Of a DNA stretch of 64,000 bases, positions 31,318 to 48,120 are shown piece by piece. The translations under genes were made by a program, and so were the position numbers. Position 1 is the stretch's first letter, and every line of letters starts with the position of its first letter. The notes below the pieces were generated by a model, which was not told the DNA's origin, did not search any database, and saw only the letters and a list, made by a program, of their open reading frames with translations. Where the stretch lies: the NCBI GenBank assembly GCA_009781475.1, contig WQYB01000004.1:19647-83646 (forward strand), in the 5' to 3' direction. The stretch is from Treponema sp. GTDB taxonomy: Bacteria; Spirochaetota; Spirochaetia; Treponematales; Breznakiellaceae.

Positions 31318-33036
31318 TTATACGTAAAGATAGCGTTTAATTTTCATTGTTGGGGTTTTTTCAAAAGGTTCGTACTTAATTTCTATCCTGCTAAGTTTTG
31401 AAAAAGCCGCCAGTTTTTTATTTACCCATGTGCGAAGGTCTTCCATTGCATGTTCAATAACGACGCAGGCGCTTTTGGCAGCTTCGCTCAGTCTTACTAA
31501 AGCGATAAGCTCGCCTTTTTGACCTGAATATACAAGAGATTCTTCTACAAGCTGGGAAGAACCTAAAAGCCTTTCAATTTCTTCTGGATATATATTTTCA
31601 CCGGAAGGACCTAAAATTAATGCTTTAAGCCTTCCTCTTATATGAAGCTGTCCTTTTTTATCAAAATTGCCGAGGTCTCCTGTGCGAAGCCAGCCGTCTG
31701 TTGTAATTGTTTCAGCAGTTTTTTCGGTATCATTATAATAACCGAGCATTATATTGGGTCCTGTTACCTGAATTTCACCTTCAGTTGATTCAGAGTTAGT
31801 TAGGCACTTTGCTATTCTAAGTTTTACGCCTTTTGGAGGAACAATACCGGATTTTAATGTAAAACACTTTGGCGCATTACCTGCTACCAAAGGAGCGGCT
31901 TCTGTAAGACCATAACCAATTGTGTATGGAAACTTAGCGTGGTAAAGAAATTTTTCTACATCTGGAGCCAAAGGAGCGCCGCCAATACCAAAAAATCTGA
32001 TGCGCCCGCCTAAAGCCTTTTTTAATTTTTTCCCTGCAACCCTTATCGCCAAAGAACGTGTTAAAGGAAATTTGTATAATTTGTTTTTTAAAAGTTTTGG
32101 AGCAATACCATTGTTGTAAACTTTTTCTATTAGAAGGGGAACAGAAGTCATTACAGTCGGGCGTATAAGCTCAAGAGCGGGAAGTAATACAGAAGGTGAC
32201 GGAGGACGATCAAGGTATGCTATGCTGGCTCCGCAAATTACAGGCGCTATAAGACCTAAGCCGCATTCATAAGAGTGAGCAAGAGGTAATACTGAAAGCA
32301 ATTTGTCTTTCGGAGAAATTGTAATAAAGGAAAAAGATGATCTTGCACTGAAAATAATATTCTTGCTGGAGAGCATAACTCCTTTGCTGTTTCCCTGTGT
32401 TCCGCTTGTGTAAATAATACTGGCAAGATCGTTTGGATTATCCTGCAAAGGCAGCGGAAGATTATTTATTGTGTCCAAAGGAAAAAGTTTTTTCTCGCCG
32501 TCAATCGAAACTGATATTTCTGTATTGGAATTTGCCATACTATCAATATAAATTAAAGGTATTTTTGAAAATACCGGAAGCAGCTTTTCATTTAAAAAAT
32601 CGTCGGTTTGTACGGATTCATCTTCAACATTAGCAATTTTTTCCGCCATACTACGGCTGATACATACAGCCCTAACGCCGGAATGTTCGATTAAATATTG
32701 AATTTGCTCATTGGAAAAACCGGTAAGTAAAGGGACAGAAACAGCGCCTGCGATTGCAATTCCGAAATAGGCAAGCGGCCATTCCGGGCTATTTTCCGAA
32801 AAAAGCATGACTCTATCGCCTTTTTGCACCCCTAGCTTTGTTAAAACCGATGCAATTTGAGCAGAACTGTAACCCATTTGTTTATATGTTACGGATCTGT
32901 CAATTTTACCGTCAATTATCATGGAAAAAGCAGTATTATCTTTATATTTCTCAGATACTGAAAGGCACATTTGAGCGAGTGTAGCATTTGCTACAGGATC
33001 ATCATCAAAGGCTTTTTTAATACTTTTTTTATTCAT
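31318..33036 (-). CDS. AMP-forming long-chain acyl-CoA synthetase-like protein
   Basis: 572 residues. The adenylate-forming fold is complete: P-loop YTSGTQGNSKGVML, the Tyr-Gly-Leu-Thr-Glu motif IGYGLTEAAPLV, DGWLRTGDLGNFDKKGQL and GRLKALILGPSGENIYPEEIE, with the C-terminal Lys in TPTMKIKRYLYV. It activates a carboxylic acid to acyl-AMP and then to the thioester; the length and the LPLAHSYECGLGL region fit long-chain fatty acids. Unlike the ligase at 42328-44238 it has no carrier domain and an intact P-loop. It is divergent from ruvA across an 80-nt gap. No clear Shine-Dalgarno is present. Substrate is inferred. Confidence 0.85.
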   Translation of the reverse strand: MNKKSIKKAFDDDPVANATLAQMCLSVSEKYKDNTAFSMIIDGKIDRSVTYKQMGYSSAQIASVLTKLGVQKGDRVMLFSENSPEWPLAYFGIAIAGAVSVPLLTGFSNEQIQYLIEHSGVRAVCISRSMAEKIANVEDESVQTDDFLNEKLLPVFSKIPLIYIDSMANSNTEISVSIDGEKKLFPLDTINNLPLPLQDNPNDLASIIYTSGTQGNSKGVMLSSKNIIFSARSSFSFITISPKDKLLSVLPLAHSYECGLGLIAPVICGASIAYLDRPPSPSVLLPALELIRPTVMTSVPLLIEKVYNNGIAPKLLKNKLYKFPLTRSLAIRVAGKKLKKALGGRIRFFGIGGAPLAPDVEKFLYHAKFPYTIGYGLTEAAPLVAGNAPKCFTLKSGIVPPKGVKLRIAKCLTNSESTEGEIQVTGPNIMLGYYNDTEKTAETITTDGWLRTGDLGNFDKKGQLHIRGRLKALILGPSGENIYPEEIERLLGSSQLVEESLVYSGQKGELIALVRLSEAAKSACVVIEHAMEDLRTWVNKKLAAFSKLSRIEIKYEPFEKTPTMKIKRYLYV

Positions 33037-34863: not shown

Positions 34864-35949
34864 ATCAAAACGAACGACTTTTATTTTAATCTTCCTGAAA
34901 ACTTAATCGCGCAGTTTCCTTCCAAAGAAAGAGGGCAGAGCAGGCTTTTACTTTTAAATCGTATAACAGGCGAAAGAATTCACAGTAATACCGATCAATT
35001 ACCTGATATTCTATGTGAAAAAAAGTTTTTAAGCCCGTCAGGTGAAAAACCATTATTAGTTTTTAATGATACAAAGGTGCGAAAAGCCCGCCTTACCGGA
35101 AAATCAATTGAAACAGGAACAATGGTAGAATTTTTGTTACTTGAATATGACAAAACTTGCAATGAATGGAAAACAATTGTACAACATGCAAAACGTCGGA
35201 AACCCGGCAGCCGTTATGAATTTTTTGATAAAAATAAAAATATTATTGCAGAAGCTGTAATAACAAAAGCGCAGGATGAATTTAGATACATACAAATAAA
35301 AAATAAAATCGATAATAAACCAATCGACGATGATTTTTTTGATAAATACGGTCATGTTCCGCTGCCGCCTTATATAAAAAGAAAAGACGAAAGTATTGAC
35401 AGTGAAAGGTATCAGACAATTTATGCAGACAAAACAGGATCTGCTGCAGCGCCAACGGCTGGACTGCATTTTACACAAGAAATTTTAGACAAACTTGATT
35501 TATTCGGCATAGAAAGAGTTTTTATAACACTACATGTAGGTTTAGGAACTTTTTTACCTGTTCGTACTGAAAACATAATAGAGCATAAAATGCACAAAGA
35601 AACATTTTTTATAAATGAGATGACTGCTAAAAAAATAGAAAACGCAAAAGAGGCGGGACGTAAAATAATAGCAATTGGAACTACAAGTGTACGCACTTTG
35701 GAAAGCGCATGGGATAATAATATTAAAAAAATCGTACAAAAAGAAGGGGATACTTCGATTTTTATTTACCCCGGTTATAAGTTTAAGTTGGTAGATGTTA
35801 TATTTACAAATTTTCACACGCCGGAATCTACACTTTTAATGCTTGTATCCGCCTTTGCAAATAAGGATATAATTCTGGAATGTTATACCGAAGCAGTAAA
35901 AGAGCAATATAGATTTTTTAGCTACGGTGATGCAATGCTGATTTATTAA
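34864..35949 (+). CDS. queA: S-adenosylmethionine:tRNA ribosyltransferase-isomerase, apparent ATC start
   Basis: Transfers and isomerises the ribosyl group of SAM onto 7-aminomethyl-deazaguanine in tRNA, making epoxyqueuosine. Conserved regions: DFYFNLPENLIAQFP at the N-terminus, VFNDTKVRKARLTG, AAPTAGLHFTQEIL, ITLHVGLGTFLPVR, TSVRTLESA and TNFHTPESTLLMLVSAF. The homologous frame begins at ATC 34864, directly after an in-frame TAA and 6 nt after AGGAG (34853-34857). No ATG, GTG or TTG occurs in frame until GTG 35077, which would delete about 70 conserved residues. From ATC the product is 361 residues, the family's normal size. The 3' end overlaps the convergent glycosyltransferase by 32 nt. 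Confidence 0.9.
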   Translation: MKTNDFYFNLPENLIAQFPSKERGQSRLLLLNRITGERIHSNTDQLPDILCEKKFLSPSGEKPLLVFNDTKVRKARLTGKSIETGTMVEFLLLEYDKTCNEWKTIVQHAKRRKPGSRYEFFDKNKNIIAEAVITKAQDEFRYIQIKNKIDNKPIDDDFFDKYGHVPLPPYIKRKDESIDSERYQTIYADKTGSAAAPTAGLHFTQEILDKLDLFGIERVFITLHVGLGTFLPVRTENIIEHKMHKETFFINEMTAKKIENAKEAGRKIIAIGTTSVRTLESAWDNNIKKIVQKEGDTSIFIYPGYKFKLVDVIFTNFHTPESTLLMLVSAFANKDIILECYTEAVKEQYRFFSYGDAMLIY

Positions 35950-37243
35950 CAGGAAACAATGTTTGCGCAGCTTCAAAAGGAATTCTGTCTGTTGTTTCCC
36001 ATTTAAAATAATCATAACTTGTAGTAAAAGCGGCAATAAAGATACGAAAATACCCGATTGTATATATTGGATTAAAAAATAAAACAGCCAATTTTTCGGA
36101 TAACGGAATCTTTATATTACGCCAATCAACGATAAGCGGCAAAAGAGTGAAGGCAAAAAGAGAGCCGTATATAAATAAAAATGAAATTACCGCAAGGCGC
36201 AAAGCCGGCACAAGACTTACAGCATTACCGAAAAGTGAAAAACAGATAGCGGCAATACCGAATATCATCACCGCCGCAGAAACGCCGAGTAGCGCATAAG
36301 CGGGATATGTACTGTATAAAAAATCGTAGTTTTTGCGCAATTTTACTTTTCCTGAAAATGTTTTTTTAACGATTTTTTTATGGTAACGCCGCTGGCATTG
36401 AGTATAACCTTTGATCCAGCGCATCCTGCGTTTAAAAGCAGTTTTTGCATCGGTTGCTTCTTCTGTATAAACCCTTGCATAAGAATAATAAAATGTTGTC
36501 CAGCCTTTTAAAATAGCATCGGCTGTCATTTCATAGTCCTCAGTAAGACCGCGGTAAGGCCAGCCGTTATTTTCTTTTATTACATCTGTACGCACCATCA
36601 TACCGGTTCCGATTATTGTGATAGTCATATCTAAAATATTACGGGCGCGGTTTCCAAGTTCGTCTACCTGTGTCCATGTAAGAGCAGTACAGTTTGAAAT
36701 AATTGATCTAGAATCACAGCGGCGGCTTAGCCAATTTTTTACAAGTTTTTTACCGCAGATGATCTGTTTGCCGCTGCCAAGAGCATTATTCATTTCTTCC
36801 ACCAGATCGGGTGATGCAAGATTGTCAGCATCTACTATCAAAAATGCTTCGTACTTATCCGGAGTATCGGTTAGTATTTTTTTTAGAATACCGTCAAGAG
36901 CATCACCCTTACAGGTTTGACCGCTTATTATAGTCACATAGGTGCGTTCATAGGAAGCGGCGATTTTTATTGTGGGATCGGCATGGTCTGCAACAACGAT
37001 ATGGACATCGAAAAACTCGGGATTATAAGTTTGAGCGGCAAGAGAATCAAGACAATGGCTAATAACAGCACTTTCATTTCTGGCAGGAACAATGACGGCG
37101 ATTTTATTCATTTTTGGATTATTAAGTCTTTTTTGCTTTCTGAAGGCGGCAAAATAATAGCTGATACGCGGTAAAAATAATGTAAGGGCTGCAATACAAA
37201 ACCAAAGATAGATTTTCAAAGCCAATTCTGTTGCGTATTCCAT
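35918..37243 (-). CDS. Membrane glycosyltransferase, family 2, processive type
   Basis: 441 residues. An N-terminal membrane helix is followed by a GT2 domain with the nucleotide-sugar motif VDADN (DxD), the acceptor-base motif LTEDYEM (TED) and RMRWIKGYTQ (a QxxRW variant), then three or four C-terminal helices. This is the arrangement of polymerising synthases such as PgaC/cellulose-synthase relatives. Product and acceptor are unknown. It is transcribed alone, convergent with queA, and its final 32 nt lie inside the queA coding end. A TATACT box lies 11 nt before the ATG. Confidence 0.8.
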   Translation of the reverse strand: MEYATELALKIYLWFCIAALTLFLPRISYYFAAFRKQKRLNNPKMNKIAVIVPARNESAVISHCLDSLAAQTYNPEFFDVHIVVADHADPTIKIAASYERTYVTIISGQTCKGDALDGILKKILTDTPDKYEAFLIVDADNLASPDLVEEMNNALGSGKQIICGKKLVKNWLSRRCDSRSIISNCTALTWTQVDELGNRARNILDMTITIIGTGMMVRTDVIKENNGWPYRGLTEDYEMTADAILKGWTTFYYSYARVYTEEATDAKTAFKRRMRWIKGYTQCQRRYHKKIVKKTFSGKVKLRKNYDFLYSTYPAYALLGVSAAVMIFGIAAICFSLFGNAVSLVPALRLAVISFLFIYGSLFAFTLLPLIVDWRNIKIPLSEKLAVLFFNPIYTIGYFRIFIAAFTTSYDYFKWETTDRIPFEAAQTLFPVNKSALHHRS

Positions 37244-37315
37244 ATTATTTAATGAGTATACATGTAAGTTAATATAATGTTAAGAGTTTAATGTTTTTTT
37301 TTGATAAAAAAAAGC

Positions 37316-37346
37316 TCTTGCGCAAGAATTAAAAAAATGGTAATAT
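37316..37346 (+). promoter_or_regulatory. Promoter with overlapping 12-nt palindrome
   Basis: TCTTGCGCAAGA (37316-37327) is a perfect palindrome. It contains TTGCGC (37318-37323), which lies 17 nt before TAATAT (37341-37346). A repressor bound to the palindrome would cover the -35 box. GGAGG at 37358-37362 serves the ATG at 37373. Confidence 0.4.
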
Positions 37347-37372
37347 GATAAAAAAATGGAGGTTAATTAATT

Positions 37373-37795
37373 ATGACAGAAAAAATGATTGAACTTGGTT
37401 TTAAGGAACCGGAAAAGAAAAAAAGGCTTTTTAGCATTCGTCACTGGGCTCGTAACAATTTAAAAGATGACAATATATACTCTGTAGAAGAAAACGTAGA
37501 TAACATTAATTTATCGGAAGGAAGTTATTTACATATAATAGCAAGAAACGGAGGCTCTTTTATTTTGGAAGAAGGAGCCACTTTAGTAGCTCCTAATCTT
37601 GAAAAATGTAACTCTATAATATTAAAAGCGGGAGCAAAAGCATGGCTTCCTAATCTTCAAAAAACTGAAGAAGGATGGTTTGCCGGCGGCGATATAAATA
37701 GAAATGGCATGGTTCTTGTTGAAAAAGGTGCGTTAATATATGCTCCCCGTGCAATATTTAAGCAACAAGCAGGAGACGGAGAGTTCCTTACATAA
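37373..37795 (+). CDS. Small orphan protein with repeated beta strands
   Basis: 140 residues, no signal peptide or membrane segment. After a basic N-terminus (KEPEKKKRLFSIRHWARNNL) come three similar short units: LEEGATLVAPNLEKC, LKAGAKAWLPNLQKT and VEKGALIYAPRAIFK. The period is about 20-30 residues, as in small beta-helix or leucine-rich-like folds. I do not recognise a family. It has a good ribosome-binding site, its own promoter with a palindrome, and a strong stem-loop after the stop, so it is an independent gene. It is divergent from the GT2 gene. A structural or adaptor role is possible; nothing more can be said. Confidence 0.55.
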   Translation: MTEKMIELGFKEPEKKKRLFSIRHWARNNLKDDNIYSVEENVDNINLSEGSYLHIIARNGGSFILEEGATLVAPNLEKCNSIILKAGAKAWLPNLQKTEEGWFAGGDINRNGMVLVEKGALIYAPRAIFKQQAGDGEFLT

Positions 37796-37798
37796 GGT

Positions 37799-37831
37799 AA
37801 TCTCTAAAAACTAAAATAGTTTTTAGAGATT
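37799..37831. terminator. 15-bp perfect stem-loop between convergent genes
   Basis: The left arm AATCTCTAAAAACTA and right arm TAGTTTTTAGAGATT pair perfectly around a 3-nt loop. No U-tract follows on either strand, so termination is inferred from position (after 37795, before the convergent stop at 37859). Confidence 0.55.
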
Positions 37832-37858
37832 GATGTAATTATATCATTTTGAGAATAT

Positions 37859-38959
37859 TTAATAGAAAGCATTTAATAAAACTTCCGCAACAGCTTTAGC
37901 GCCTGAAATATCATTACAGCTTTTTTCATTGTAAGAAAACTTTTTTAAAAGTTCATAATCGTTTTTGAAAAGCCGGTCTAAAATACAGGATAACTCTTTG
38001 GGAGAGCCGCATTTTAAACCATATTCATTTTCAACTATATATTGATAATTTTTTTCTTCCTGTCCGGGTATGTGCCCTGTAATTATAACAGGAACGCACA
38101 TTTTTACAGCTTCTAAAATCATATTGGGACCGGCTTTTGCGATTAAAATATCAGCGTTAGAAAGCCTTGAATCCATATCATGAACATAACCTAACACAGA
38201 AACATTTTTTTTGTTTAATAGTTTTTTGTCCAGGTATTCCTTTAGTTTTTTGTTGCTTCCTGTTACAACAGTTAAATTTACATCATATTTTAAAGCTGCA
38301 AGTATAAATTTCAATGTTACTTTATCGCGTTTTAAGCTGGGGCTTACCATTAAAACATCAGGAACTGAAATATTTGTTTTCGGTTTTTTATTTATTTTGT
38401 TAAATTTTTCATTTATGGGAAAACCGGAATGAAATAATCTTTCTTTTTTAAAACCCTTTTTTAAAAGCGCATTATACATTTTGATTGTAGGCACAAAGGT
38501 TATCTTGCATTTTTTATCATGCCAAAGGTGTGAATGTTTAACCAGGTCTATAATGCAAGTGTAAAGCGGAGTATTTAATTTCATTCTTTTTAAACAATTA
38601 GTAATACTTCCGACAAAACATGGATGCACCGATAAGATTATATCCGGCTTATAATCATTAATTAATATGCTGAAACGTTTAAATATAGCCTGATAAAGAA
38701 TAAAATTTGAAAAACCTCTGAAAAACGATGTAAATTCAAAAAACAATTTCCAGAAAAATCTATATCGAGTTGTAAAAGAAATATAACCTTTTTCATCACC
38801 GTCGTAACCGGGAAAAAACTCCATAGAATCAAATGCTAAAACATCCGTATTGAGGTTTAACTCTGAAAGAGCATTTTTTATTGCATCTGAGCTGCTTTTG
38901 TGCCCTCCGCCTTTTCCGGATGTTAAGATTAGGATTTTATTTTTGGTATTCGTTTTCAT
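37859..38959 (-). CDS. MurG/MGDG-synthase-like glycolipid glycosyltransferase
   Basis: 366 residues, GT28 type. The N-terminus ILILTSGKGGGHKSSSDAIK is the G-loop of the monogalactosyl-/glucosyl-diacylglycerol synthase group, and the C-terminal half has the sugar-nucleotide site DILIAKAGPNMILEAVKMCVPVIITG and GQEEKNYQYIVENEYG. The family moves a hexose from a UDP-sugar to diacylglycerol at the membrane. This is the last gene of the nine-gene lipid cluster, 10 nt after the zinc-ribbon gene. Sugar and acceptor are inferred. AAGGA sits directly against the ATG, an unusually short spacing. Confidence 0.8.
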   Translation of the reverse strand: MKTNTKNKILILTSGKGGGHKSSSDAIKNALSELNLNTDVLAFDSMEFFPGYDGDEKGYISFTTRYRFFWKLFFEFTSFFRGFSNFILYQAIFKRFSILINDYKPDIILSVHPCFVGSITNCLKRMKLNTPLYTCIIDLVKHSHLWHDKKCKITFVPTIKMYNALLKKGFKKERLFHSGFPINEKFNKINKKPKTNISVPDVLMVSPSLKRDKVTLKFILAALKYDVNLTVVTGSNKKLKEYLDKKLLNKKNVSVLGYVHDMDSRLSNADILIAKAGPNMILEAVKMCVPVIITGHIPGQEEKNYQYIVENEYGLKCGSPKELSCILDRLFKNDYELLKKFSYNEKSCNDISGAKAVAEVLLNAFY

Positions 38960-38969
38960 TCCTTAAGTT

Positions 38970-39398
38970 TTAGAAAAAATTATGAAGAGCGGTACTGAGT
39001 ACTGCAATTAATATACCAATGTAAAAAATCCAGAATACTGTCATGAATATGGATAATGCCAAGCCGATGCTGCCCGTAATTACACCTGCTAATGCAATAT
39101 GAAATTTATCATGACTTTCATTTAAAACAGTTCGTGCCTTTTTACCTGTTGATATAGCAATAGCGCCTAAAATAATGCCTACAATGAGCCAGCTTGTAAC
39201 AAGACTTATTATACCCATAACAAGGGAGGCTACAGCTCTGGATTCAGAATCTGCGATTTCAGGTGATGGTTTAAAAACCAGATTATTGTCATTAGACTCT
39301 TGAACTATTGAATTTTGCTGCGGTTCAGCTTTATTACCGCAAGAGGAGCAAAAAGCAGCGTCATTTTGAAATTCTTTGCCGCATTTAGAACAATACAT
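38970..39398 (-). CDS. Zinc-ribbon membrane protein
   Basis: 142 residues. MYCSKCGKEF and FCSSCGNK provide the four Cys (3, 6, 17, 20) of a zinc ribbon. A linker leads to two hydrophobic regions (ASLVMGIISLVTSWLIVGII and a C-terminal stretch of about 40 residues), as in DUF4190-type proteins. The ribbon should face the cytoplasm. It sits 1 nt from the hydrolase gene upstream and 10 nt before the glycosyltransferase, so it belongs to the lipid cluster; its role there is unknown. Confidence 0.7.
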   Translation of the reverse strand: MYCSKCGKEFQNDAAFCSSCGNKAEPQQNSIVQESNDNNLVFKPSPEIADSESRAVASLVMGIISLVTSWLIVGIILGAIAISTGKKARTVLNESHDKFHIALAGVITGSIGLALSIFMTVFWIFYIGILIAVLSTALHNFF

Positions 39399-39399
39399 A

Positions 39400-40401
39400 T
39401 TAATTAACCTCCGTAATTTTTACATTATTATATTTTTGCAAGAAATTTGCAATAGCTTTATCGTAGTCAGCTTCTTGTGAAGATCTGACATGGGAATGTC
39501 TGCCTTCCGGGAAAAACTTAAGTTCTTTGTATTTTGAAACACATGAATTAAAAAGTTCCTCACTTTTAGATTTAATACAAAAAATATCTTTTGCACTCCA
39601 AATGAATAAAAACGGGATTTCAATATCTTTCATATATTTTTTTGGAGTTTCTTCAAAAAGCCTGACTCTGGCAAGAATAAATGCAAGGAAAAAAACCAAA
39701 TAAAGCATAGGAAAAGGGCGTTTTTTACGCAATTTAAAATTTTCTTTGAATATTTCGTAAAAACTTAAAAATATTCCGTCAGTAACTATTCTTTTTACTA
39801 AATCGCTGCCTTCATTTTTCAGTTTGATATAAGCAAAGACTGCCGCAGCTCCTCCGATGCAAATTCCGTGAAGCGTAAAATCGGTTATGGAATATTTTTT
39901 GTTAATAAGTTTTATCCATGAAACTAAATCGCCGCTTTCCTTTATACCCGAAGTTATATATTTTCCGTCACTAAGACCATGCGCCCTGACATCGATTACC
40001 AAAATATTGTAACCGTTTTTTTTATAAACATCTGCAAAATAATAAGAGTACAAAAGCGATTCAGTTCTTCCTTGCAGGATTACAGCGCATTTGTCAAAAC
40101 CGAAATTTATATATTCGCCGTATAAATTAAGTCCGTCATTTATTATATGCAGCTCTTCTGTTTTATCCTTGAATTGCAATGCCCAATTAATTCCTTCAGA
40201 AAACATATACATTTGCTGTTCATCTTTTGTATTGGTACATTCTCTTGTTCTTTTCTTCTTTGGGTTGCGGTACATTGTGTTGCAAAAAATTATAATAGGA
40301 ATTAAAAAGAACATAATAATACCGCTTACAGCCCCAAAAGAGGCTGCGGCAATAGCGGTAATTACCCAGGGGTTTTCCAATGCGAGAATTGATGAAATCA
40401 T
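39400..40401 (-). CDS. Membrane-anchored alpha/beta hydrolase with Cys nucleophile
   Basis: 333 residues. One N-terminal transmembrane segment (about 22-42) precedes an alpha/beta-hydrolase fold with IDVRAHGLSDG. The nucleophile elbow GxSxG reads HGICIGGAAAV, placing Cys181 where Ser is usual; I checked the codon (TGC). Asp272 (SAKDIF) and His302 or His304 (EGRHSHVRS) complete a triad. Cys nucleophiles occur in dienelactone hydrolases and bile-acid acyltransferases, so acyl transfer rather than hydrolysis is possible. It overlaps the DegV gene's end by 4 nt. Within this cluster a lipase, thioesterase or acyltransferase role is likely; the substrate is unknown. Confidence 0.75.
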   Translation of the reverse strand: MISSILALENPWVITAIAAASFGAVSGIIMFFLIPIIIFCNTMYRNPKKKRTRECTNTKDEQQMYMFSEGINWALQFKDKTEELHIINDGLNLYGEYINFGFDKCAVILQGRTESLLYSYYFADVYKKNGYNILVIDVRAHGLSDGKYITSGIKESGDLVSWIKLINKKYSITDFTLHGICIGGAAAVFAYIKLKNEGSDLVKRIVTDGIFLSFYEIFKENFKLRKKRPFPMLYLVFFLAFILARVRLFEETPKKYMKDIEIPFLFIWSAKDIFCIKSKSEELFNSCVSKYKELKFFPEGRHSHVRSSQEADYDKAIANFLQKYNNVKITEVN

Positions 40402-41345
40402 AATTTGCTTACTATGTCATTTATGATTTCTTTTTCAAACTTCAAGTCTGTTATTTCTGTTCCGAAATAGTATGCGCCAAGAAGCCCGGGACCTACGTTT
40501 ATACCGCACATAGGATATACGTTGCAAATAATTACTTCTTTTGGTTTTATTTTTTCAATAATTTTGGAAGCCAGGATTTCAGCCTGTTTTTTTCTTGCTG
40601 AATGAGCGACAAAAATAATCTGTTCGTTTGCAGATTTAATTGTTTTTTCAATATATTCAACTGTAGCTTTGTATGCCTTTTCGTAGCCGCTTACCTTTGT
40701 TAAAACTGTAACCATGCCGTCAGGACCAAAATCTCCCATAGGTTTTATCCCTGCTACAGTACCGAAAAATGCCTTAGCGTGAGAAATTCTTCCTTTAGAT
40801 GCGACCCAAAATAAATCGTCAATGGGACCCATTTGATGAAGTGTCATTTTAATCTTTTCCAGCTTTTGTGCATTTTGCTCCAGTGATAAACCTTCCGCGC
40901 GGAACTGACAAGCCTTTACAGTTAAAAGTCCCAGAGCTACCGAATATTTTCTGGAATCTACAATAAATATTTTTCGTTCGGGGTATTTTTCCAATAAAGC
41001 TTTTTGTGCGCATGTCATTACATTGTATGTTGCGCTGAGGCTGCTTGATATGCATAGAGCCAAAACGTCTTTTCCTTGCTGCAAAAAAGATTCAAAATAT
41101 GAAGTAACATCATCAACACTGAGCGCGGCAGTTTTGTATCCGTTTTTATTTGATTTTAATGACGAATAAAAATTGTCAAGCTCTTCATCGCTTAAATCAA
41201 GCCTGCCTTCGACATCATCTGCTTCCGGGGTACATAAATAACCTTTAAGGTAACCGTCAACTTCAAAGCGAGTCCTAAGTTCTGGTGACAAATCGCAGGC
41301 TATATCAGCAAAAACTGCATAGCTGTACTGTTTTTCTTCATTCAT
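40398..41345 (-). CDS. DegV-family fatty-acid-binding protein (FakB-like)
   Basis: 315 residues. The DegV fold is clear: ADIACDLSPEL, CISSSLSATYNVM (canonical SLSGTY), IFIVDSRKYSVALGLL and ASKGRISHAKAFFG, ending GINVGPGLLGAYYFG. DegV proteins bind one fatty acid; FakB members hand it to the kinase FakA, which makes acyl phosphate. FakA is encoded three genes upstream in the same cluster, which supports the FakB assignment. I chose ATG 41345, preceded by AGGAGG at 41350-41355, over an in-frame ATG at 41393 that lies inside the upstream gene. The stop overlaps the hydrolase start by 4 nt. Confidence 0.82.
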   Translation of the reverse strand: MNEEKQYSYAVFADIACDLSPELRTRFEVDGYLKGYLCTPEADDVEGRLDLSDEELDNFYSSLKSNKNGYKTAALSVDDVTSYFESFLQQGKDVLALCISSSLSATYNVMTCAQKALLEKYPERKIFIVDSRKYSVALGLLTVKACQFRAEGLSLEQNAQKLEKIKMTLHQMGPIDDLFWVASKGRISHAKAFFGTVAGIKPMGDFGPDGMVTVLTKVSGYEKAYKATVEYIEKTIKSANEQIIFVAHSARKKQAEILASKIIEKIKPKEVIICNVYPMCGINVGPGLLGAYYFGTEITDLKFEKEIINDIVSKL

Positions 41346-41353
41346 AATTCCTC

Positions 41354-42331
41354 CTAAATTTTTAAAGTAACTCTGTTTGCAAAGTCCAGGCAATTATTGT
41401 TTATTATACTATATCCGCCTTGTCCAAGACATGATTTTGCATACTTTTCAATATCTTCCGCATTTCTAATAAATCTTTTTTCGCTTCTTTTCATCGTGCG
41501 TACTTCAGGGATTTTAGCGCCGCAAAAATCCTTCAAAGAAATAGAATTAACAATTACATTTTCTCCTGCTCTGTTTACAGTATAGCCAAATTGAATAACT
41601 TCGTCTGCATTAATATATACGCCGTAATGGTGGTGAGAACCTGCATTAATGCGGATAATGTCGCCTTTTTTAGGCGAGATAAAATCATATTTATTGGAAA
41701 ACTTCTGCGCTTTTTCTCTTTTTAATTTATAAAAAAGCATTAAATATTTATTGCTTATTTCAGCATTTATTTCTTTTAATTTTTCTTTTGTAAGTTCTGT
41801 ATCTGAATAATCCGATAAATCTATGCTGTTTCCGATCATTACGTGAACTCTCTTAAAAAGTCCGTAATTAAAATCGTTAACAACCGGAATTATCTTTACT
41901 CCTGTTTTTACTGCAATCATTATATATCCTTCAGAAAATTTTGAAGGTTCGTATGTAAACTTAAAACCGCCTTCGGGAAACATCAAAATGGGTCTGCCCT
42001 TTGCGGTTATTCTTTTGCTTTTTTGAATAAAATCTAGGCTGCGCCCGTCTCTTTCAATAAAAATGCCTCCGGCTATTCTTATTAATAGTTTTAATAATTT
42101 ACGTTTTTTATTGTACCAATCAATAACCAAAAAGTGTAATCTTTCAAAGAAAAATATAAGAGCGATAACAATACCGTCCATAAAAGATCGATGGTTAGAA
42201 ATAATTAAAGCGCTGCCGTTTGTCCGTTTAATTTTTTTATTATTGTCCTCATAATAAGTTTTTGTTTTAAATATAAAAAGCTGAAAAAGTAAAAGCTGTA
42301 TAAGTCCGAAGTAATATATAATTATACTCAT
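41354..42331 (-). CDS. Fusion of PlsC-type acyltransferase and LRAT-like domain
   Basis: 325 residues. Residues 1-210 are a PlsC-type acylglycerol-phosphate acyltransferase: an N-terminal hydrophobic segment, NHRSFMD (His47 and Asp52, HX4D) and FPEGGFKF (residues 118-125, an EGxR variant). Residues 221-325 are an LRAT/H-Rev107-like domain of the NlpC/P60 superfamily: KGDIIRI, HHHYGVYI (His235) and NNNCLDFANRV (Cys314). The second His of the family, expected 12 residues on, is Gln247. LRAT proteins move acyl groups between phospholipids through a Cys thioester, so one chain carries two acyl-transfer centres. ATG 42331 shares ATGA with the previous stop. Confidence 0.85.
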   Translation of the reverse strand: MSIIIYYFGLIQLLLFQLFIFKTKTYYEDNNKKIKRTNGSALIISNHRSFMDGIVIALIFFFERLHFLVIDWYNKKRKLLKLLIRIAGGIFIERDGRSLDFIQKSKRITAKGRPILMFPEGGFKFTYEPSKFSEGYIMIAVKTGVKIIPVVNDFNYGLFKRVHVMIGNSIDLSDYSDTELTKEKLKEINAEISNKYLMLFYKLKREKAQKFSNKYDFISPKKGDIIRINAGSHHHYGVYINADEVIQFGYTVNRAGENVIVNSISLKDFCGAKIPEVRTMKRSEKRFIRNAEDIEKYAKSCLGQGGYSIINNNCLDFANRVTLKI

Positions 42332-44238
42332 AACATCTCTTTTATATAATTGTAAAAGCACTGCGGAGTGCGTAAGTTTTGGTTTTTTTCCAGATTGATT
42401 TGAATGTTAAATATACTTTCAATTTCACATATCAATGTAAAATAGTCAAGACTGGTTGCGCCTAAATCAATAAAGAAATCTGAACCAGTTTGTACTTCTG
42501 TATCAGTATTTGCTGCAGATTTAAACACTTGTTTAATTAATAACATCGCAGCATCGTCTGTTTTGTCATCTTGTTTATAACAGATGTCTTTAAGATTTCT
42601 GCTATTCAATAAAATAACTTCGCCTTCAGTGATTTTTCGTTTTAATAACTCGCGCGAAACTTTAATCGCATTTGGGTTTGCAATTAACTGTCGGGTTACA
42701 AAAATCTCTTTTACATTCTGTCCGTAGGTGATTTGCGCTAAAGACTTTTTTAATATTTCTATTTCATTGGAAATTATTGTGTCCGGCAGCTTTTCGTTAT
42801 ATTCCAAAACGATTGAAAGTTTTCCATCCAGTTCTAAAACGCATAGTTTGTTTGCATTTTTAACTTTTAATTCATTTTGAATTGTATCAGGATGTATATT
42901 TTCGCCGTTTTCACTGATAAAAAGATCGCTTTTCCGTCCTACAATGTAATGCCGTCTGTTTATTGTTTTTATTATATCATTAGTTTTTATACAGTAAAAA
43001 CCGCATTGATTTTCTTTAAGTGTGATAATTTTTTTACAAATAGAACTGCCGGATACAACTAAAGTTCCGTCTTCGTTATAAGTGTAATCGGCGCTTATAA
43101 AAGGATTCCCTATTGAGCCGTCTGTTCGTTTTTTTATTCTCTTTGAAAGATTTGCTCCTGTAATAGCAGTTTCTGTAGTACCGTAACCGTTAAAAAGCGG
43201 ATAACCGATGCAGTTAATGATTTTTAAAGCATCGCTTTCTATATAAGCACCGCCTGAAATCATAAACACAGGAGATAATCCGAACGATGCGGCAAGTACT
43301 TCTTTAAAAAGTTTTTTTGAAATCCAAACACCTAATGACGGAAAAATATTTTGCAAGGCAAAAGCAAGTTTTATACCTCTTTGAAATTTCTTTTTTCGTA
43401 CTTCGCTTTCCTGCGAAATCCCATTCATTATTCCTTTGTGTAATTTGTGGAAAAGGATCGGAGGGGCAAAAATATGCGTTACCTTGTGCCTATTTATTGT
43501 TCCCCTTATAGTGTCCGGGGAATTGTCTTTGAGAAAAACCATTGTACGTCCGAAAAAAGCAAACCAAAAATAACTTACCATAATTCCAAAGATGTGAAAA
43601 AGCGGTAAAATCATAACAACCTTAATTCTTTTTTTGTAGTCATTCATAAGCCAATTATTGGTTTTTATAATATCTTTTGTATTTAATATTTGATTTACAA
43701 CAGCCTCACCGTCAAATACGCATATCTTTGCTTCAAGACCTGTAAGAGTAGAAGATAAAGCAAATTCATTATCCCAAAATTCATCTGAAATTTGCATATT
43801 TTTATTTTCATAAGTGTCAATATTTATAACAGTAAAATCAATATAGTCATTTGAAGATGTTATTACCAGATTAACATTAAGGATTTTTAGGAGTTTTATT
43901 CTTAGATCCGCAGGGTAAAACGAATTAACAAGATACGGTTTGTTGCCGCTCATTAAAATTGCCCAAAACGAAATTAAAAAATTTGGCGTATTAACAAGGT
44001 CAATAGCAATATATTCACCGGATGTATCAGGATATGTTTGTTTTATAAATGCTGCAAATGATCGTATCTGTAAATCTAACGTTTTGTAGGTTACTGCATC
44101 AATTTCTAAATTGACAAGCCTTTCGTATGCAAAAAGGTTTTCATGTGAAAATATTATTTTATATATATCTTTGAATGTTTTATCTGATTTCATTACAGCG
44201 TTCAGGTTCTTTTTAATAGTTTTTTTATAATTTTCCAT
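42328..44238 (-). CDS. AMP-forming acyl ligase with C-terminal acyl-carrier domain
   Basis: 636 residues. The adenylation fold is recognised by LPLFHIFGIMVSY, NGYGTTETAITG, YIVGRKSDLFISENGENIHP and the Lys motif PNAIKVSRELL. The usual P-loop (SGTTGxPK) is degenerate and reads SSTLTGLEAKICV. The last 75 residues are a carrier domain with DLGATSLDYFTL, where Ser596 would carry phosphopantetheine. The enzyme probably loads a fatty or hydroxy acid onto its own carrier, providing acyl-ACP to the neighbouring PlsC-type protein. I chose ATG 44238, 16 nt after the FakA stop, over one at 44301 inside fakA. The end overlaps the next gene by 4 nt. Confidence 0.8.
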   Translation of the reverse strand: MENYKKTIKKNLNAVMKSDKTFKDIYKIIFSHENLFAYERLVNLEIDAVTYKTLDLQIRSFAAFIKQTYPDTSGEYIAIDLVNTPNFLISFWAILMSGNKPYLVNSFYPADLRIKLLKILNVNLVITSSNDYIDFTVINIDTYENKNMQISDEFWDNEFALSSTLTGLEAKICVFDGEAVVNQILNTKDIIKTNNWLMNDYKKRIKVVMILPLFHIFGIMVSYFWFAFFGRTMVFLKDNSPDTIRGTINRHKVTHIFAPPILFHKLHKGIMNGISQESEVRKKKFQRGIKLAFALQNIFPSLGVWISKKLFKEVLAASFGLSPVFMISGGAYIESDALKIINCIGYPLFNGYGTTETAITGANLSKRIKKRTDGSIGNPFISADYTYNEDGTLVVSGSSICKKIITLKENQCGFYCIKTNDIIKTINRRHYIVGRKSDLFISENGENIHPDTIQNELKVKNANKLCVLELDGKLSIVLEYNEKLPDTIISNEIEILKKSLAQITYGQNVKEIFVTRQLIANPNAIKVSRELLKRKITEGEVILLNSRNLKDICYKQDDKTDDAAMLLIKQVFKSAANTDTEVQTGSDFFIDLGATSLDYFTLICEIESIFNIQINLEKNQNLRTPQCFYNYIKEML

Positions 44239-44254
44239 AAAATCTGATAACCCT

Positions 44255-45832
44255 TTAATATGCTCCGATAATAAAATCAGATTCATGCTGCTTGCCTTCA
44301 ATAAATGAAAACTCTATATTACTATTTTTTTCAAAATGCACATGAATACTTTTTATATCTTTTTGTTTACAATATTTTCCGCTGAAAATAATAACTGTTG
44401 AATATGATCTTAATATTTCTTCGTCTGCCACTGTATCTAAAAGCTGTTCAAAGTTATCTGTTGTAATTAATTTATTTTTTAGAAAACCTGAATACTGTGT
44501 AGAGTTTTCTATAACTGTAGTTTTAATGTATGTTTGAAAAATATGCTGCTTTTTAAGGTTTTCAAGTGATTTTACAATATTTTTAAACTCATCGGTAAAA
44601 ACAAGTGACGAAAGCATAAAAAATGTTTTTGATAAACTTTCAGATTCTGCAACATAAACATTTTGAAGATTCGAAAACCATTTAATTCTTCTAAGTCTTT
44701 CGTGTGTTTCCTTGTCATTGGCAAAAATTATCAGGTTTTCTTTTAAAAACTCACCTATCAGCTTTTTTAATTCTTCTTCACTGGGATAATGTTCAGAAGG
44801 AACATTAAAAGCAATATCTGCTCCAAGCTGCTCCAGGATAGCTGCATTACCCTCGCCTTTTGTAAATGCAACAATGGCAAAGTCTGTATGTTTACGAAGT
44901 TTTAATCTTTCAAATTCTTCTGTCTGGAACAGGTCATCAACTTTCCTTACGGCAATATCGCCGTATTTGGAAAATTCATCCATTATTTCACGCGGCTCAT
45001 TAGTATGAATATGTACTTTTAATACACTTTTATCCGCCGCTACAACAATCGAATCACCTCTTTTTGAAAGTAAACGGACAAAGAAATCTTTATTTTTTTC
45101 TTCGTACATTCTTAAAACAAATTCAGTGCAATAACGGAAAAAAGAAATACTTTTAACAAGGATGGGGATGCGTTTTGGAAGTAATTCGCTTTGTTCACAA
45201 TTAAAATGAACTAAATCATCATTAAGCGATTTTTTCATTCCGTCAAAAATAAGATAAAATCCCAATGCGCCGCTGTCTACAACGTTATTTTCACGCAGTA
45301 CATCCATCTGCTTAACAGTTTCTTGAACACATAAAAACATTTCTTCTGTTAAAACATCAAAAAAATCTTTTACGGATGTTTTATCGTTTAATCTAGGCAG
45401 AGTTTTTTCAATTCCATCACGCATTACAGTTAACATAGTGCCTTCGGCAGGATGTATAACAGCCCTGTAAGCAATCTCGTAAGCATGCTGTAAAGCGCAG
45501 CTAAAAATGCCAATCGTAACAGGTTCATCTTTATTTTTTATATAATCATAAATCCCTAAAAAATATTGCGACAAGATAAAACCGGAGTTTCCTCTTGAAC
45601 CTAGCAGTATACCGTTTACAAAAGACGAAAAAACATCGTGAAAAGAAAATTCTCCGTTAATTGCAGCAATACCGTTTTTAAACGTTTTTTTCATGTTTGT
45701 ACCGGTATCGCTGTCAGAAACGGGAAATATATTCAAGTCGTTTAAATAGTTTTTGTTATGCGAAAGACTAGTGAAGCCGCTATGCAGCATTCTACGAAGT
45801 AATCCGCCGTCTATTGTATTTTCACAGATCAT
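44255..45832 (-). CDS. fakA: FakA-type fatty-acid kinase (DAK2 domain)
   Basis: 525 residues. The N-terminal DhaL/DAK2 domain has FPVSDSDTGTNM with the magnesium-binding Asp residues (canonical VPDGDTGTNM), GSRGNSGFILSQYFLG, and HPAEGTMLTV. The middle and C-terminal domains follow FakA (CTEFVLRMYEE; KVHIHTNEP). FakA phosphorylates a fatty acid held by FakB to give acyl phosphate, an entry point of exogenous fatty acids into phospholipid. A FakB-like DegV is encoded in the same operon. The C-terminal 120 residues are less conserved. It starts 4 nt after the MFS gene. Confidence 0.85.
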   Translation of the reverse strand: MICENTIDGGLLRRMLHSGFTSLSHNKNYLNDLNIFPVSDSDTGTNMKKTFKNGIAAINGEFSFHDVFSSFVNGILLGSRGNSGFILSQYFLGIYDYIKNKDEPVTIGIFSCALQHAYEIAYRAVIHPAEGTMLTVMRDGIEKTLPRLNDKTSVKDFFDVLTEEMFLCVQETVKQMDVLRENNVVDSGALGFYLIFDGMKKSLNDDLVHFNCEQSELLPKRIPILVKSISFFRYCTEFVLRMYEEKNKDFFVRLLSKRGDSIVVAADKSVLKVHIHTNEPREIMDEFSKYGDIAVRKVDDLFQTEEFERLKLRKHTDFAIVAFTKGEGNAAILEQLGADIAFNVPSEHYPSEEELKKLIGEFLKENLIIFANDKETHERLRRIKWFSNLQNVYVAESESLSKTFFMLSSLVFTDEFKNIVKSLENLKKQHIFQTYIKTTVIENSTQYSGFLKNKLITTDNFEQLLDTVADEEILRSYSTVIIFSGKYCKQKDIKSIHVHFEKNSNIEFSFIEGKQHESDFIIGAY

Positions 45833-45836
45833 TTTA

Positions 45837-47360
45837 CTATTTAACGCCGTTATCCTTTTTTACAATTTCAGAATCAGCCAGGTCTTCGCTGTCCGGAACA
45901 TAGTTACTGTCAAATAACTTTCCTATTGTTTTTGTATCATAACTTTTCGGCATTAAAAAAGCCGCGCAGAAAGCAACAAGGCTCAAAAACGCTACAATAA
46001 AAGGAGCGATAAAACCGCCAAGAGGTATGTTATCGTACATGATGCCGTCAGCTCCAATCATTGATGTTGATAAATAAATTTTATCAAGACTTCTTAAAGT
46101 TGTAGCAAGAACTCCGGTTGCGATAGCACCGGCTGTTCCGACTACAATGCCTTGCCCGGCAAAATACATTGCGCTGTTTCTTCGCTTGACAACCTTAAGT
46201 TCAACAGCAGCAACCTGAGATGGAATCATAAGAACCATCATAAAAAATGCACCTATTGAAAAACTCGATACTGTCGCACCTATTGCGTTAATAACTATAC
46301 GCGGAACAATCGAATTCGGAAAGAACATTGCCGACCCCATAGAAAAACAAATAATACCCACAGCAAAAGAAAAAAGCGACGCTTGAAGCGCAAAGCGGAT
46401 ACCCTTTCTTTTCATAATTTTATTGTAGAAATAAAGCATGATTGGAACAGGTCCAAATGCAGCAGCATTAAGCAACGCGGCAAAAACAGGAGTAAGCAGT
46501 AAAACGCCGGATATTAATTCGTTTTGCATAGTTAAAAATAATTGCAGACCTGTAAAATAAACAAAAGCAACAAGCATCCATGACCAGAATGCTTTGTTTG
46601 TAACAACAAATTTTAAGCTGGAAATAATACCGGGTTTTTTCTCCTGGGTATCTTGTTCTGCTTCAGAATTAACCGGATTAACTTCAGTATCTTTTTGTCC
46701 TTTTGACATTATCACAGGAATAAACAATGTTAATATAAGAGGGGATGACATTAAAATAAGATGCATAATATTAAGCCCTGTTCCTTTTAAACTGGATAAG
46801 ATAAGCGGGATAAGCGCATAAGCTAATGCATATTGAACAGTGTCGATAAAGGATTTGAAAAAAGAAACCCTTGCCCGCTGAGAACGGTCTTTACAAATAC
46901 TTGAAAGTCCGCTGTAAAATGCAACCATGGCTAAAGTATAAGCGGTGAAAAAAACAATCAGTACTGCAAAAAACCAAAATGTATTAAGATGACTGTTCGG
47001 TGCTAAAGTCAGCGGAATGCAAAGAGCAACAACGCTGGCTATAAGAGGAACAACCGCAATAAGAATAGGCAGTCTTAAACGCGTATATTTGTTTTTCATT
47101 CCATCAAGTTTTGAAGCAAGCGGAACCGTTATAAGCGCGTCAAATATGCGTGATATGGTGAACAATATTCCAAAGATAGCGGTAAAAACGATAGGTTCAA
47201 AACTACCGTCCGGCTGTGACCATGCCCAAAGCTCTTTGTTTACTTCTAAATTACGCGGATCTACAGCGCTTGTAAAGTAAGCCATGAGCATTGTAAAAAT
47301 AATGTTTGGTCCGAAAACACTCAGCGCGTAAAGAAACTCTCTTCTTTTGTTAATTAACAT
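45837..47360 (-). CDS. MFS carrier of the GPH / MFS_2 type
   Basis: 507 residues with about 12 hydrophobic segments. The layout, the loop KLDGMKNKYTRLRLPIL and IFTISRIFDALITVPLAS resemble the GPH (melibiose-type) family, in which RxxDAxxDP-like motifs follow helix 2. The central cytoplasmic loop (about residues 225-250) is charged. GPH members are mostly sugar:cation symporters, but the same superfamily includes MFSD2A, a lysophospholipid carrier. Since the flanking genes handle fatty acids and acyl transfer, a lipid substrate is as plausible as a sugar. It overlaps the GT32 gene by 11 nt and precedes fakA by 4 nt. Confidence 0.75.
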   Translation of the reverse strand: MLINKRREFLYALSVFGPNIIFTMLMAYFTSAVDPRNLEVNKELWAWSQPDGSFEPIVFTAIFGILFTISRIFDALITVPLASKLDGMKNKYTRLRLPILIAVVPLIASVVALCIPLTLAPNSHLNTFWFFAVLIVFFTAYTLAMVAFYSGLSSICKDRSQRARVSFFKSFIDTVQYALAYALIPLILSSLKGTGLNIMHLILMSSPLILTLFIPVIMSKGQKDTEVNPVNSEAEQDTQEKKPGIISSLKFVVTNKAFWSWMLVAFVYFTGLQLFLTMQNELISGVLLLTPVFAALLNAAAFGPVPIMLYFYNKIMKRKGIRFALQASLFSFAVGIICFSMGSAMFFPNSIVPRIVINAIGATVSSFSIGAFFMMVLMIPSQVAAVELKVVKRRNSAMYFAGQGIVVGTAGAIATGVLATTLRSLDKIYLSTSMIGADGIMYDNIPLGGFIAPFIVAFLSLVAFCAAFLMPKSYDTKTIGKLFDSNYVPDSEDLADSEIVKKDNGVK

Positions 47361-48120
47361 TTTTTCCTCTCTTTTTATATTCTATTTTTAGCCTGATAAG
47401 CATGTTTGCCTTGGCTATTTGTTCAAAAAAACTAAATAAATGTTTTCCCAGTATTAACCGCACGACTCTTGCAAATTTTTGACCTTTAAGTTTTCCTTTG
47501 GAATGCCATGCCGATGAATAATGATGCATAGCTACAGTATTTTCAGTCATCTTTGTTATTCGAGTCATGTAATTTTGAGGGAAAAAATAATCGGTGGAAA
47601 GAAGCTGTGCATTATCAGGCAGCTTTTTTGTTTTTCCATCAAGTTTAATACCGTAAAGCCTTTTAATTACTTCGCTGAAATTAAATACACATAACATATT
47701 AGAGCCGAGTTTTTTGCGTGGTGTAAGATACCTGTTGTATACTTCATGCATTATTCTATGCCCTTTTTTCGAAGCCAAAACGGCACAGCCAAACCATAAA
47801 TCAGTTTCGTAGCCAATTATAAAATCATTTTCAGCAGTCAGTTCGTCAAGAGGTTTAAAAAGTTCAATGTCGGTATCAAGATAAACACCGCCGTGATTTA
47901 ATAAAACCCAGCTTCTAATAACATCTGCAGCAAGCGGGTAGTTTTTTTGTTCCATAGCAAGTTTTATCCAATCGTTACTTTCACAGTCAAAGTTTTGTTC
48001 ATTCCACTTAATAATTTCCCATTCGGGATGAAGATGCTTCCAATTTTCAATGAAAAAGGTAAATCTTTCGGGAACCTCTTTGCTCCCAAGCCAAACATAG
48101 TGGATTGCCTTTTCAATCAT
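47350..48120 (-). CDS. GT32-type glycosyltransferase
   Basis: 256 residues. IHYVWLGSKEVPERF at the start and NHGGVYLDTDIELFKPL with the DxD motif are the signature of the GT32 (Och1/capsular) family, which uses nucleotide sugars with retention of configuration. No membrane helix is predicted, so it probably acts at the cytoplasmic face. It is the first gene of the nine-gene minus-strand cluster, overlapping the MFS gene by 11 nt. With the MurG-like enzyme at the other end it suggests a product carrying at least two sugars. Acceptor unknown. Confidence 0.8.
   Translation of the reverse strand: MIEKAIHYVWLGSKEVPERFTFFIENWKHLHPEWEIIKWNEQNFDCESNDWIKLAMEQKNYPLAADVIRSWVLLNHGGVYLDTDIELFKPLDELTAENDFIIGYETDLWFGCAVLASKKGHRIMHEVYNRYLTPRKKLGSNMLCVFNFSEVIKRLYGIKLDGKTKKLPDNAQLLSTDYFFPQNYMTRITKMTENTVAMHHYSSAWHSKGKLKGQKFARVVRLILGKHLFSFFEQIAKANMLIRLKIEYKKRGKNVN

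Follow-up and report, generated by a model that had tools for sequence, protein, structure and literature searches.

Our analysis concerns a window of 64,000 nucleotides (nt) of Treponema sp. DNA (contig WQYB01000004.1 of assembly GCA_009781475.1, positions 19,647 to 83,646), and within it a row of genes that appear to serve fatty-acid activation, acyl transfer and glycosylation. The list of open reading frames (ORFs) places nine of them head to tail on the minus strand, from 48120 down to 37859. The row opens with a GT32 glycosyltransferase carrying a DxD motif (47350..48120; PF04488, 5e-16), which heads the cassette wherever it is present, and continues with an MFS_2 (GPH-type) transporter (45837..47360; PF13347, 8e-19), a FakA-like fatty acid kinase subunit (44255..45832; PF02734 (DAK2) 1e-26, PF21645 (FakA_M) 2e-21, PF13684 (FakA_C) 7e-12), an AMP-forming acyl ligase with its own acyl carrier protein (ACP) domain (42328..44238; PF00501 7e-26, PF00550 3e-4) and a PlsC acyltransferase fused to an LRAT/PLAAT-like domain (41354..42331; Pfam Acyltransferase 2e-20, LRAT 4e-12). 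These are followed by a DegV/FakB-like fatty acid-binding protein (40398..41348; PF02645 5e-46, with DegV/FakB chains as its PDB matches), a probably membrane-anchored alpha/beta hydrolase with a Cys nucleophile (39400..40401; C181-D272-H302, Pfam alpha/beta hydrolase 8e-12), a small zinc-ribbon/DUF4190-like membrane protein (38970..39398; PF13240 9e-5 and PF13828 1e-5, both below the curated cut-off) and an MGDG-synthase-like/UgtP-like GT28 (37859..38959; PF06925 (MGDG_synth) 7e-14, PF04101 (GT28_C) 4e-10). The intergenic distances along the row are -11, 4, 16, -4, 5, -4, 1 and 10 nt, so that ORF positions and Pfam matches bear out an earlier note on this DNA, which had described nine genes with these domains and with overlaps or gaps of at most 16 nt. 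A GT2 membrane glycosyltransferase gene (35918..37243, minus strand; PF13632 2e-23) lies 615 nt beyond the GT28 gene; because of its synteny in relatives we count it in the set, which gives a predicted cassette of ten genes at 35918-48120. On balance, and with moderate confidence, we favor the reading that these ten genes form a conserved cassette present in four phyla and likely spread horizontally, which is predicted to activate fatty acids, acylate a lipid backbone and glycosylate the product.

A search with the PlsC-LRAT protein listed 120 relatives at E <= 1e-3, with Treponema, Clostridiales, Coriobacteriia and Firmicutes as source names. In a census of loci, two peptide patterns taken from the alignment were run against 84,980 species genomes and returned 15 loci, which is a lower bound. 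With phyla assigned from record titles and the labels of the tree program, these belong to Spirochaetota (L035, L037, L038), Fibrobacterota (L033), Actinomycetota (L039, L040, L042) and Bacillota (L032, L034, L036, L041, L043-L046); L037 and L038 lie in genomes G015 and G006, both of the window's genus. Twelve of the 15 genomes are termite-gut genomes, 11 by sample codes that correspond to termite species in a table of PMC7024585 and one, at L033, as Fibrimonas termitidis. Outside this count are L032 and L036, whose sample codes are of the same style, and L044.

The order shared among the loci is GT32-(MFS)-FakA-ligase/ACP-PlsC/LRAT-DegV-hydrolase-(Zn)-GT28-GT2, with losses. PlsC is present in all 15 loci and the hydrolase in 13, the two remaining contigs stopping in DegV. 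The ligase-ACP is likewise found in 13 (one partial; absent from L039 and L045), DegV in 11, and FakA and GT32 in 10 each, with FakA split over two ORFs in L044. GT28 occurs in five (L032, L034, L036, L039, L044), GT2 in five (L032, L034, L036, L039, L045; a weak match in L038 is left out of the count) and MFS_2 in three (L034, L042, L046). The contigs of L033, L036, L040, L042 and L043 are cut. None of the other loci holds the complete ten-gene set; L032 and L034 have nine genes each, three short Treponema loci have GT32-ligase-PlsC/LRAT-hydrolase only, and in L043 the hydrolase and DegV genes are on the opposite strand. The cluster is a real conserved unit whose gene order recurs, for the most part unchanged, in other genomes, and it thereby passes the test that the earlier note had itself proposed, co-occurrence across related genomes. 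Among the papers listed in literature searches, none describes this gene set in its title or in the opening part of its abstract. Passages of PMC9137090 and PMC13067680 have no bearing on it, and the words lipid and fatty acid are absent from the latter.

Of the 39 genomes of the genus that were searched, no more than 3 have the fusion. Among 98 relatives searched for PlsC-LRAT there were 81 matches at E <= 0.001, but true fusions were confined to G000, G006 and G015 and are set apart by score (at least 484 bits, against 39 bits for the next best). Across the phylum, 2 of 392 sampled genomes matched at E <= 1e-25, namely the window's own and G431. G431 belongs to another family of the order; its distant PlsC-LRAT fusion (L048:9436-15569) has genes for ketosynthase, ketoreductase, a FabA-like protein and flavin reductase as neighbors, an aryl-polyene-like setting.

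Sequence comparison gives good support to the view that the cassette has likely passed between the four phyla by horizontal transfer. The RuvB protein of the window is 83% identical to that of G006 and 79% to that of G015, and 48-55% to those of 11 matching genomes of other phyla (G098 gave no match and G101 a fragment only, at 74%). For the cassette proteins, identity is 67-75% to L032 (48% for the zinc-ribbon protein), 64-74% to L034 and 65-69% to the three short Treponema loci; when limited to the four genes common to all, the ranges are 67-75%, 68-74% and 65-69%, respectively. It is because cassette identity across phyla is as high as within the genus, whereas RuvB identity falls, that transfer is indicated. 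The hydrolase tree contains a ten-row clade (support 100/100) that mixes Spirochaetota, Bacillota and Actinomycetota and includes a separate clade of the three short Treponema loci (100/100). In the ligase tree, the short Treponema loci group with Fibrimonas (99/98) and apart from the window, a pattern that would agree with two or more independent arrivals in the genus, although the forks that set the window's position are open. Two loci stand out as GC islands: L032 has 40.7% GC against 51.3/51.6% in its flanks and 56.9% on another contig of the genome, and L039 has 50.7% against 55.9/61.1% in its flanks and 59.0% on a genome contig. Flanks vary between loci, following host GC at the two islands; L036 and L044 show little or no GC contrast.

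The genes for fatty-acid activation retain their expected signatures. FakA keeps the motif D40-x-D42-T-G (D-x-D-T-G-x-N), and in an alignment that includes six Clostridia ligases the carrier Ser596 of the cassette ligase is invariant in 16 of 16 sequences, with Lys526 kept in at least 90%. The NCBIfam equivalog models are not reached, FakA scoring 205 bits against a cut-off of 975 for FakA_VfrB and the DegV protein 92 bits against 350 for FakB1. In 14 of the 15 loci FakA and DegV occur either together (10) or not at all (4), and the contig of the 15th (L043) begins within the ligase. L039 has FakA and DegV without a ligase, and none is matched anywhere in its genome at E <= 1e-20. Conversely, the ligase is present without FakA or DegV in the three short Treponema loci; two of their three genomes have no Dak2 match, and the third has a single match, in an open frame of 218 amino acids (aa). 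Each activation route is therefore absent somewhere. This pattern of losses fits the two routes proposed earlier for the cassette, and suggests that FakA/DegV and the ligase may be interchangeable. L045 has neither route within the locus; elsewhere, its genome encodes a ligase of 30% identity and also has a row of PlsC, a FakA::DegV fusion and the hydrolase. This natural fusion (L064:7813-9675 in G109; 620 aa, with Dak2, FakA middle and DegV domains) lies between PlsC and the Cys-hydrolase. That the cassette takes exogenous fatty acid or lysolipid as its substrate, as proposed earlier, is an inference.

A related but simpler arrangement is found in Clostridia. The hydrolase profile was run against 341 genomes sampled from the class of L046, whose record is a Clostridiales metagenome-assembled genome (MAG), and matched 69 at E <= 1e-25 in two sets, 13 at no less than 262 bits and the others at no more than 132 bits. 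Twelve loci of the first set were fetched, the 13th genome being that of L046 itself. Beside the hydrolase, FakA and DegV are present in all 12, PlsC in 10, a ligase-ACP-like gene in nine and MFS_2 in five. Among the ten with PlsC, the four with a carrier have one PlsC and the six without have two, in tandem or fused, a pattern that we regard as a lead, as these loci are interrelated and not independent. L091 has a third, short PlsC piece, and a 465-aa protein with two PlsC domains adjoins a ligase-ACP-like gene at L097:10901-12298, with homologues in L099 and L102 (Pfam on L097). None of the Clostridia PlsC proteins matches over the LRAT part. Five of the 12 loci share a protein family (cl5) that Pfam, run on one member, identifies as GT2. 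In two loci a PlsX-like gene adjoins FakA (Pfam on one member); it lies beside FakA and two DegV genes at L091:12463-13440, with a homologue in L100, and loci with this gene also have a small carrier protein, likewise by Pfam. FakA proteins of the Clostridia loci are 25-31% identical to the window FakA, and non-cassette FakA proteins 23-31%.

The LRAT domain of the fusion protein is PLAAT-like, with the permuted NlpC/P60 fold and the catalytic Cys and His. With these residues intact, it is predicted to deacylate a lipid that the PlsC domain would re-acylate. The alpha/beta hydrolase had been called Cys-type at the outset, rightly so, as the triad (C181-D272-H302) does not vary among the 14 sequences compared, nor do its Cys, Asp and His in any of the 15 rows of a wider alignment. 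DcsB and GrgF appear as Cys-type alpha/beta hydrolases in its fold list, and some enzymes of this kind, these two among them, act on carrier-bound chains. With the hydrolase as profile, a search finds 1691 relatives at E <= 1e-60; among the 120 matches listed are names of Ruminococcaceae/Oscillospiraceae and Clostridiales MAGs, and one is identical to the L096 protein.

As for the glycosyltransferases, the DxD of GT32 (D82/D84) is conserved, and the protein weakly matches large bacterial toxins and effectors in their glycosyltransferase domains. As it has 256 aa and consists of the transferase domain only, we read this likeness as a probable shared fold. The best NCBIfam match of GT28 is diglucosyl-DAG (diacylglycerol) synthase, but its score of 106 bits is well short of the 557 required by the equivalog model. 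Overall, NCBIfam offers related families for seven of the nine proteins and none for GT32 or MFS_2, and all matches are below curated cut-offs except for a DegV domain model. GT2 lies downstream of GT28 in L032, L034, L036 and L039 (72, 70, 38 and 68% identity, respectively), with a small gene intervening in L034 and L039; in L045 it follows the hydrolase (60%). The intervening genes of L034 and L039 are a homologous pair of 187 aa, pentapeptide-repeat by Pfam (on L034); in the window, a 140-aa plus-strand ORF (37373-37795) without a Pfam match at E <= 0.001 lies between GT28 and GT2. The MFS_2 carrier has partners in L034 (72%) and in L042 and L046 (32-33%), and the zinc-ribbon protein has partners in L032 and L036.

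Genes around the cassette were also considered. Consensus scans for promoters (44 promoter-like sites against 51.2 in shuffles) and terminators (10 against 8.2) gave no signal above shuffles, so that gene spacing alone is what speaks for co-transcription. A 572-aa protein a few kilobases away (31318-33036, minus strand) is weakly similar by BLAST to the ligases of the cassette family and is outside the cassette by synteny. Downstream of the cassette, L037 and L038 have genes for a TonB-plug protein, DUF3261, LolA and MMPL, directly in L038 and with three genes between in L037; L035 has homologues of the DUF3261, LolA and MMPL genes upstream, encoded on the opposite strand (assignments are from Pfam on L037 proteins, extended to L035 and L038 by homology). 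DUF3261 was rejected as a marker of the cassette, as 19 of the 39 genus genomes have it but the window's genome does not; what is noteworthy is solely where it lies, close to the short loci. The divergent AsmA-like gene (48301-51132), which had been suggested to export the product, has homologues in 10 of the 39 genus genomes, the window's included, and no cassette gene adjoins it in any of the six other neighborhoods fetched; its link to the cassette is thus not supported in relatives. Two genomes of the same genus have ruvA-ruvB and a queA-like gene without the cassette, and AsmA does not adjoin them, so this comparison offers no clean empty site. Overall, the earlier interpretation holds for the conserved unit and fits for activation by two routes, but loses its AsmA exporter; our analysis adds to it the GT2 gene, the occurrence in several phyla, the link with termite guts and the finding that PlsX and PlsY are not matched in the host draft.

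A cassette for lipid acylation and glycosylation is, on the sequence evidence, the most economical account. DegV would bind a fatty acid and FakA phosphorylate the bound chain; separately, the ligase would adenylate a fatty acid and load it onto its own carrier domain. The PlsC domain may then transfer an activated chain to a lysolipid, and the PLAAT-like domain of the same polypeptide may take a chain off an existing lipid or shift it, with the result that a single polypeptide could run a deacylation-reacylation (Lands-type) cycle. The Cys-hydrolase might act at the membrane as a thioesterase or an acyl transferase. The sugar head would be the work of GT32, GT28 and GT2, and the MFS_2 carrier, where present, could move lysolipid or sugar-lipid. 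In Spirochaetota, the outer-membrane route may be borrowed locally, given DUF3261-LolA-MMPL near the cassette in three relatives.

Several observations weigh against this account. The forks that place the window inside the ten-row clade are open in both trees, the GC contrast is slight in the window itself (34.0 against 36.0), and all 15 loci, as well as the window's genome, are draft assemblies. The LRAT domain is not universal, as L045 lacks it and in L046 it is without the Cys and His. GT32 and GT28 are not seen in four distant loci, two of which (L042, L043) are on short contigs, and BLAST gives no match to either in the 12 Clostridia loci; because of this, our proposals for substrate and product are guesses. 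Lastly, neither PlsX nor PlsY has a match in the host draft genome (93% complete), which leaves acyl-phosphate without a known consumer in the host.

This last point can be set in the context of the other hosts. PlsX and PlsY are without a match in the Treponema-type drafts G000, G006, G015 and G101, where absence from drafts is weak evidence, though the four agree; of the 16 genomes, the remaining 12 all have PlsX, and 10 of these also have PlsY. Most other hosts can thus use acyl-phosphate in the classical way, for which no genes were found in the treponemes. Because PlsX and PlsY are not matched, the first acylation step of glycerolipid synthesis in these four genomes likely runs another way. 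The single Dak2 match in the host genome is the cassette FakA, and two or more Dak2 matches are present in 9 of 12 other cassette genomes. In 10 of 11 Bacillota and Actinomycetota hosts a longer Dak2 protein (open frames of 543-685 aa) lies apart from the cassette, and in most of these genomes it is additional to the cassette FakA, so that the two kinases can be compared. Either the treponeme FakA is idle or some cassette protein takes the acyl group, for which, by inference only, the Cys-hydrolase is a candidate. A bolder version of the account would have a mobile termite-gut lipid system in which PLAAT and PlsC run a full cycle in one polypeptide, the two routes are interchangeable, acyl-phosphate is used without PlsX/PlsY through the Cys-hydrolase as acceptor, and the resulting glycolipid is a surface trait shared by four phyla whose members obtained it from one another within a common host habitat; as a whole, we advance this tentatively and consider it unlikely.

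An alternative, which seems improbable to us as well, is salvage of lysolipids and fatty acids in the manner of LplT-Aas, in which MFS_2 would flip lysolipid, the ligase and PlsC would re-acylate it, and the glycosyltransferases would only adjust head groups, with no dedicated product. Excerpts of PMC11416262 describe LplT-Aas as working by lysolipid flip and re-acylation in E. coli. The ligase adjoins PlsC as in Aas, a carrier is present in some loci, and the relation between carrier and PlsC number in the ten Clostridia loci points the same way, within the non-independence given above. However, the carrier is present in only 3 of the 15 PlsC-LRAT loci, has no sequence match in PDB and is presumably not of the LplT family, and three sugar transferases would be unneeded for repair alone. 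Those transferases could instead do the main work, the acyl genes building only a lipid anchor for a surface polysaccharide or glycoprotein. GT32, GT28 and GT2 in one row, with GT32 at its head, and a weak, below cut-off match of the GT32 protein to Caps_synth would agree with such a locus. Yet Pfam recognizes no polymerase or flippase gene in the set, and the acyl core (PlsC, hydrolase, FakA, DegV and ligase) occurs in L041, L046 and most Clostridia loci without GT32 or GT28 being seen, which makes this explanation quite doubtful.

The PLAAT-like character of the LRAT domain raises the further prospect of protein or lipoprotein acylation, by analogy with LnsA of Staphylococcus aureus, a HRASLS-like member of the NlpC/P60 superfamily. 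LnsA resembles HRASLS folds and is needed together with LnsB for lipoprotein N-acylation (PMC7387801, in excerpts). No CPBP (LnsB-like) partner is present among the cassette genes, and PlsC and the ACP-fused ligase indicate a lipid acceptor, so we regard this as very unlikely. Hardly any weight is left for housekeeping genes brought together by chance or by errors of draft assembly. Most of the cassette families are common on their own, and every locus comes from a draft, but a largely identical order with different flanks in several termite species and phyla already contradicts that explanation.

Membrane-lipid genes are usually thought to be inherited with the lineage. In the present case, genes that would activate acyl chains, transfer them and glycosylate the product have likely moved as a set between one-membrane and two-membrane cells in four phyla, with most of the copies found coming from termite guts. 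If this is confirmed, it would mean that an envelope lipid can be common property of a community in the way that other traits are. The PlsC-PLAAT fusion, the ligase with its own carrier domain and FakA where PlsX/PlsY are not found are testable cases.

Comparison with known systems brings out both resemblances and departures. With the FakA/FakB and PlsX/PlsY system of Firmicutes the cassette shares the FakA domain set, the kinase motif and the DegV partner, as well as a FakA::DegV fusion in a relative, but it falls far below the FakA and FakB1 equivalog cut-offs, its host has no PlsX/PlsY match, and its FakA stands in a row with ligase, PlsC and glycosyltransferases. LplT-Aas of Gram-negatives similarly has an acyl ligase adjoining a PlsC-type acyltransferase, and some copies of the cassette have an MFS carrier; here, however, PlsC and ligase are separate genes (the Aas model gives 40 bits against a cut-off of 886, which is not reached), the ligase has its own carrier domain, the carrier is of MFS_2 type, and an LRAT domain, Fak genes and glycosyltransferases are added. 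Aryl polyene (APE) clusters, which according to Table 1 of PMC8253772 contain genes for a ligase, carrier protein, lysophospholipid acyltransferase, thioesterase, glycosyltransferase/acyltransferase, LolA-like, RND and DUF3261 proteins, are the nearest precedent for the combination of ligase, carrier, acyltransferase, glycosyltransferase and LolA/RND/DUF3261, the last echoed by DUF3261-LolA-MMPL near three Treponema loci; unlike them, the ten cassette genes include no ketosynthase, ketoreductase or dehydratase and have Fak genes instead. GT28 shares the MGDG_synth and GT28_C domains of UgtP/MGDG synthase but remains below the equivalog cut-off. For each of FakAB-with-PlsX/PlsY, LplT-Aas, APE and UgtP, the cassette fails a defining feature that was tested, and only the LRAT domain passes its fold test. 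In contrast to the PLAAT/HRASLS (LRAT-like) phospholipase A/acyltransferases, this domain is bacterial, fused to PlsC and of predicted activity only, and LnsA (PMC7387801) is an earlier bacterial example of a PLAAT-like fold that serves acylation.

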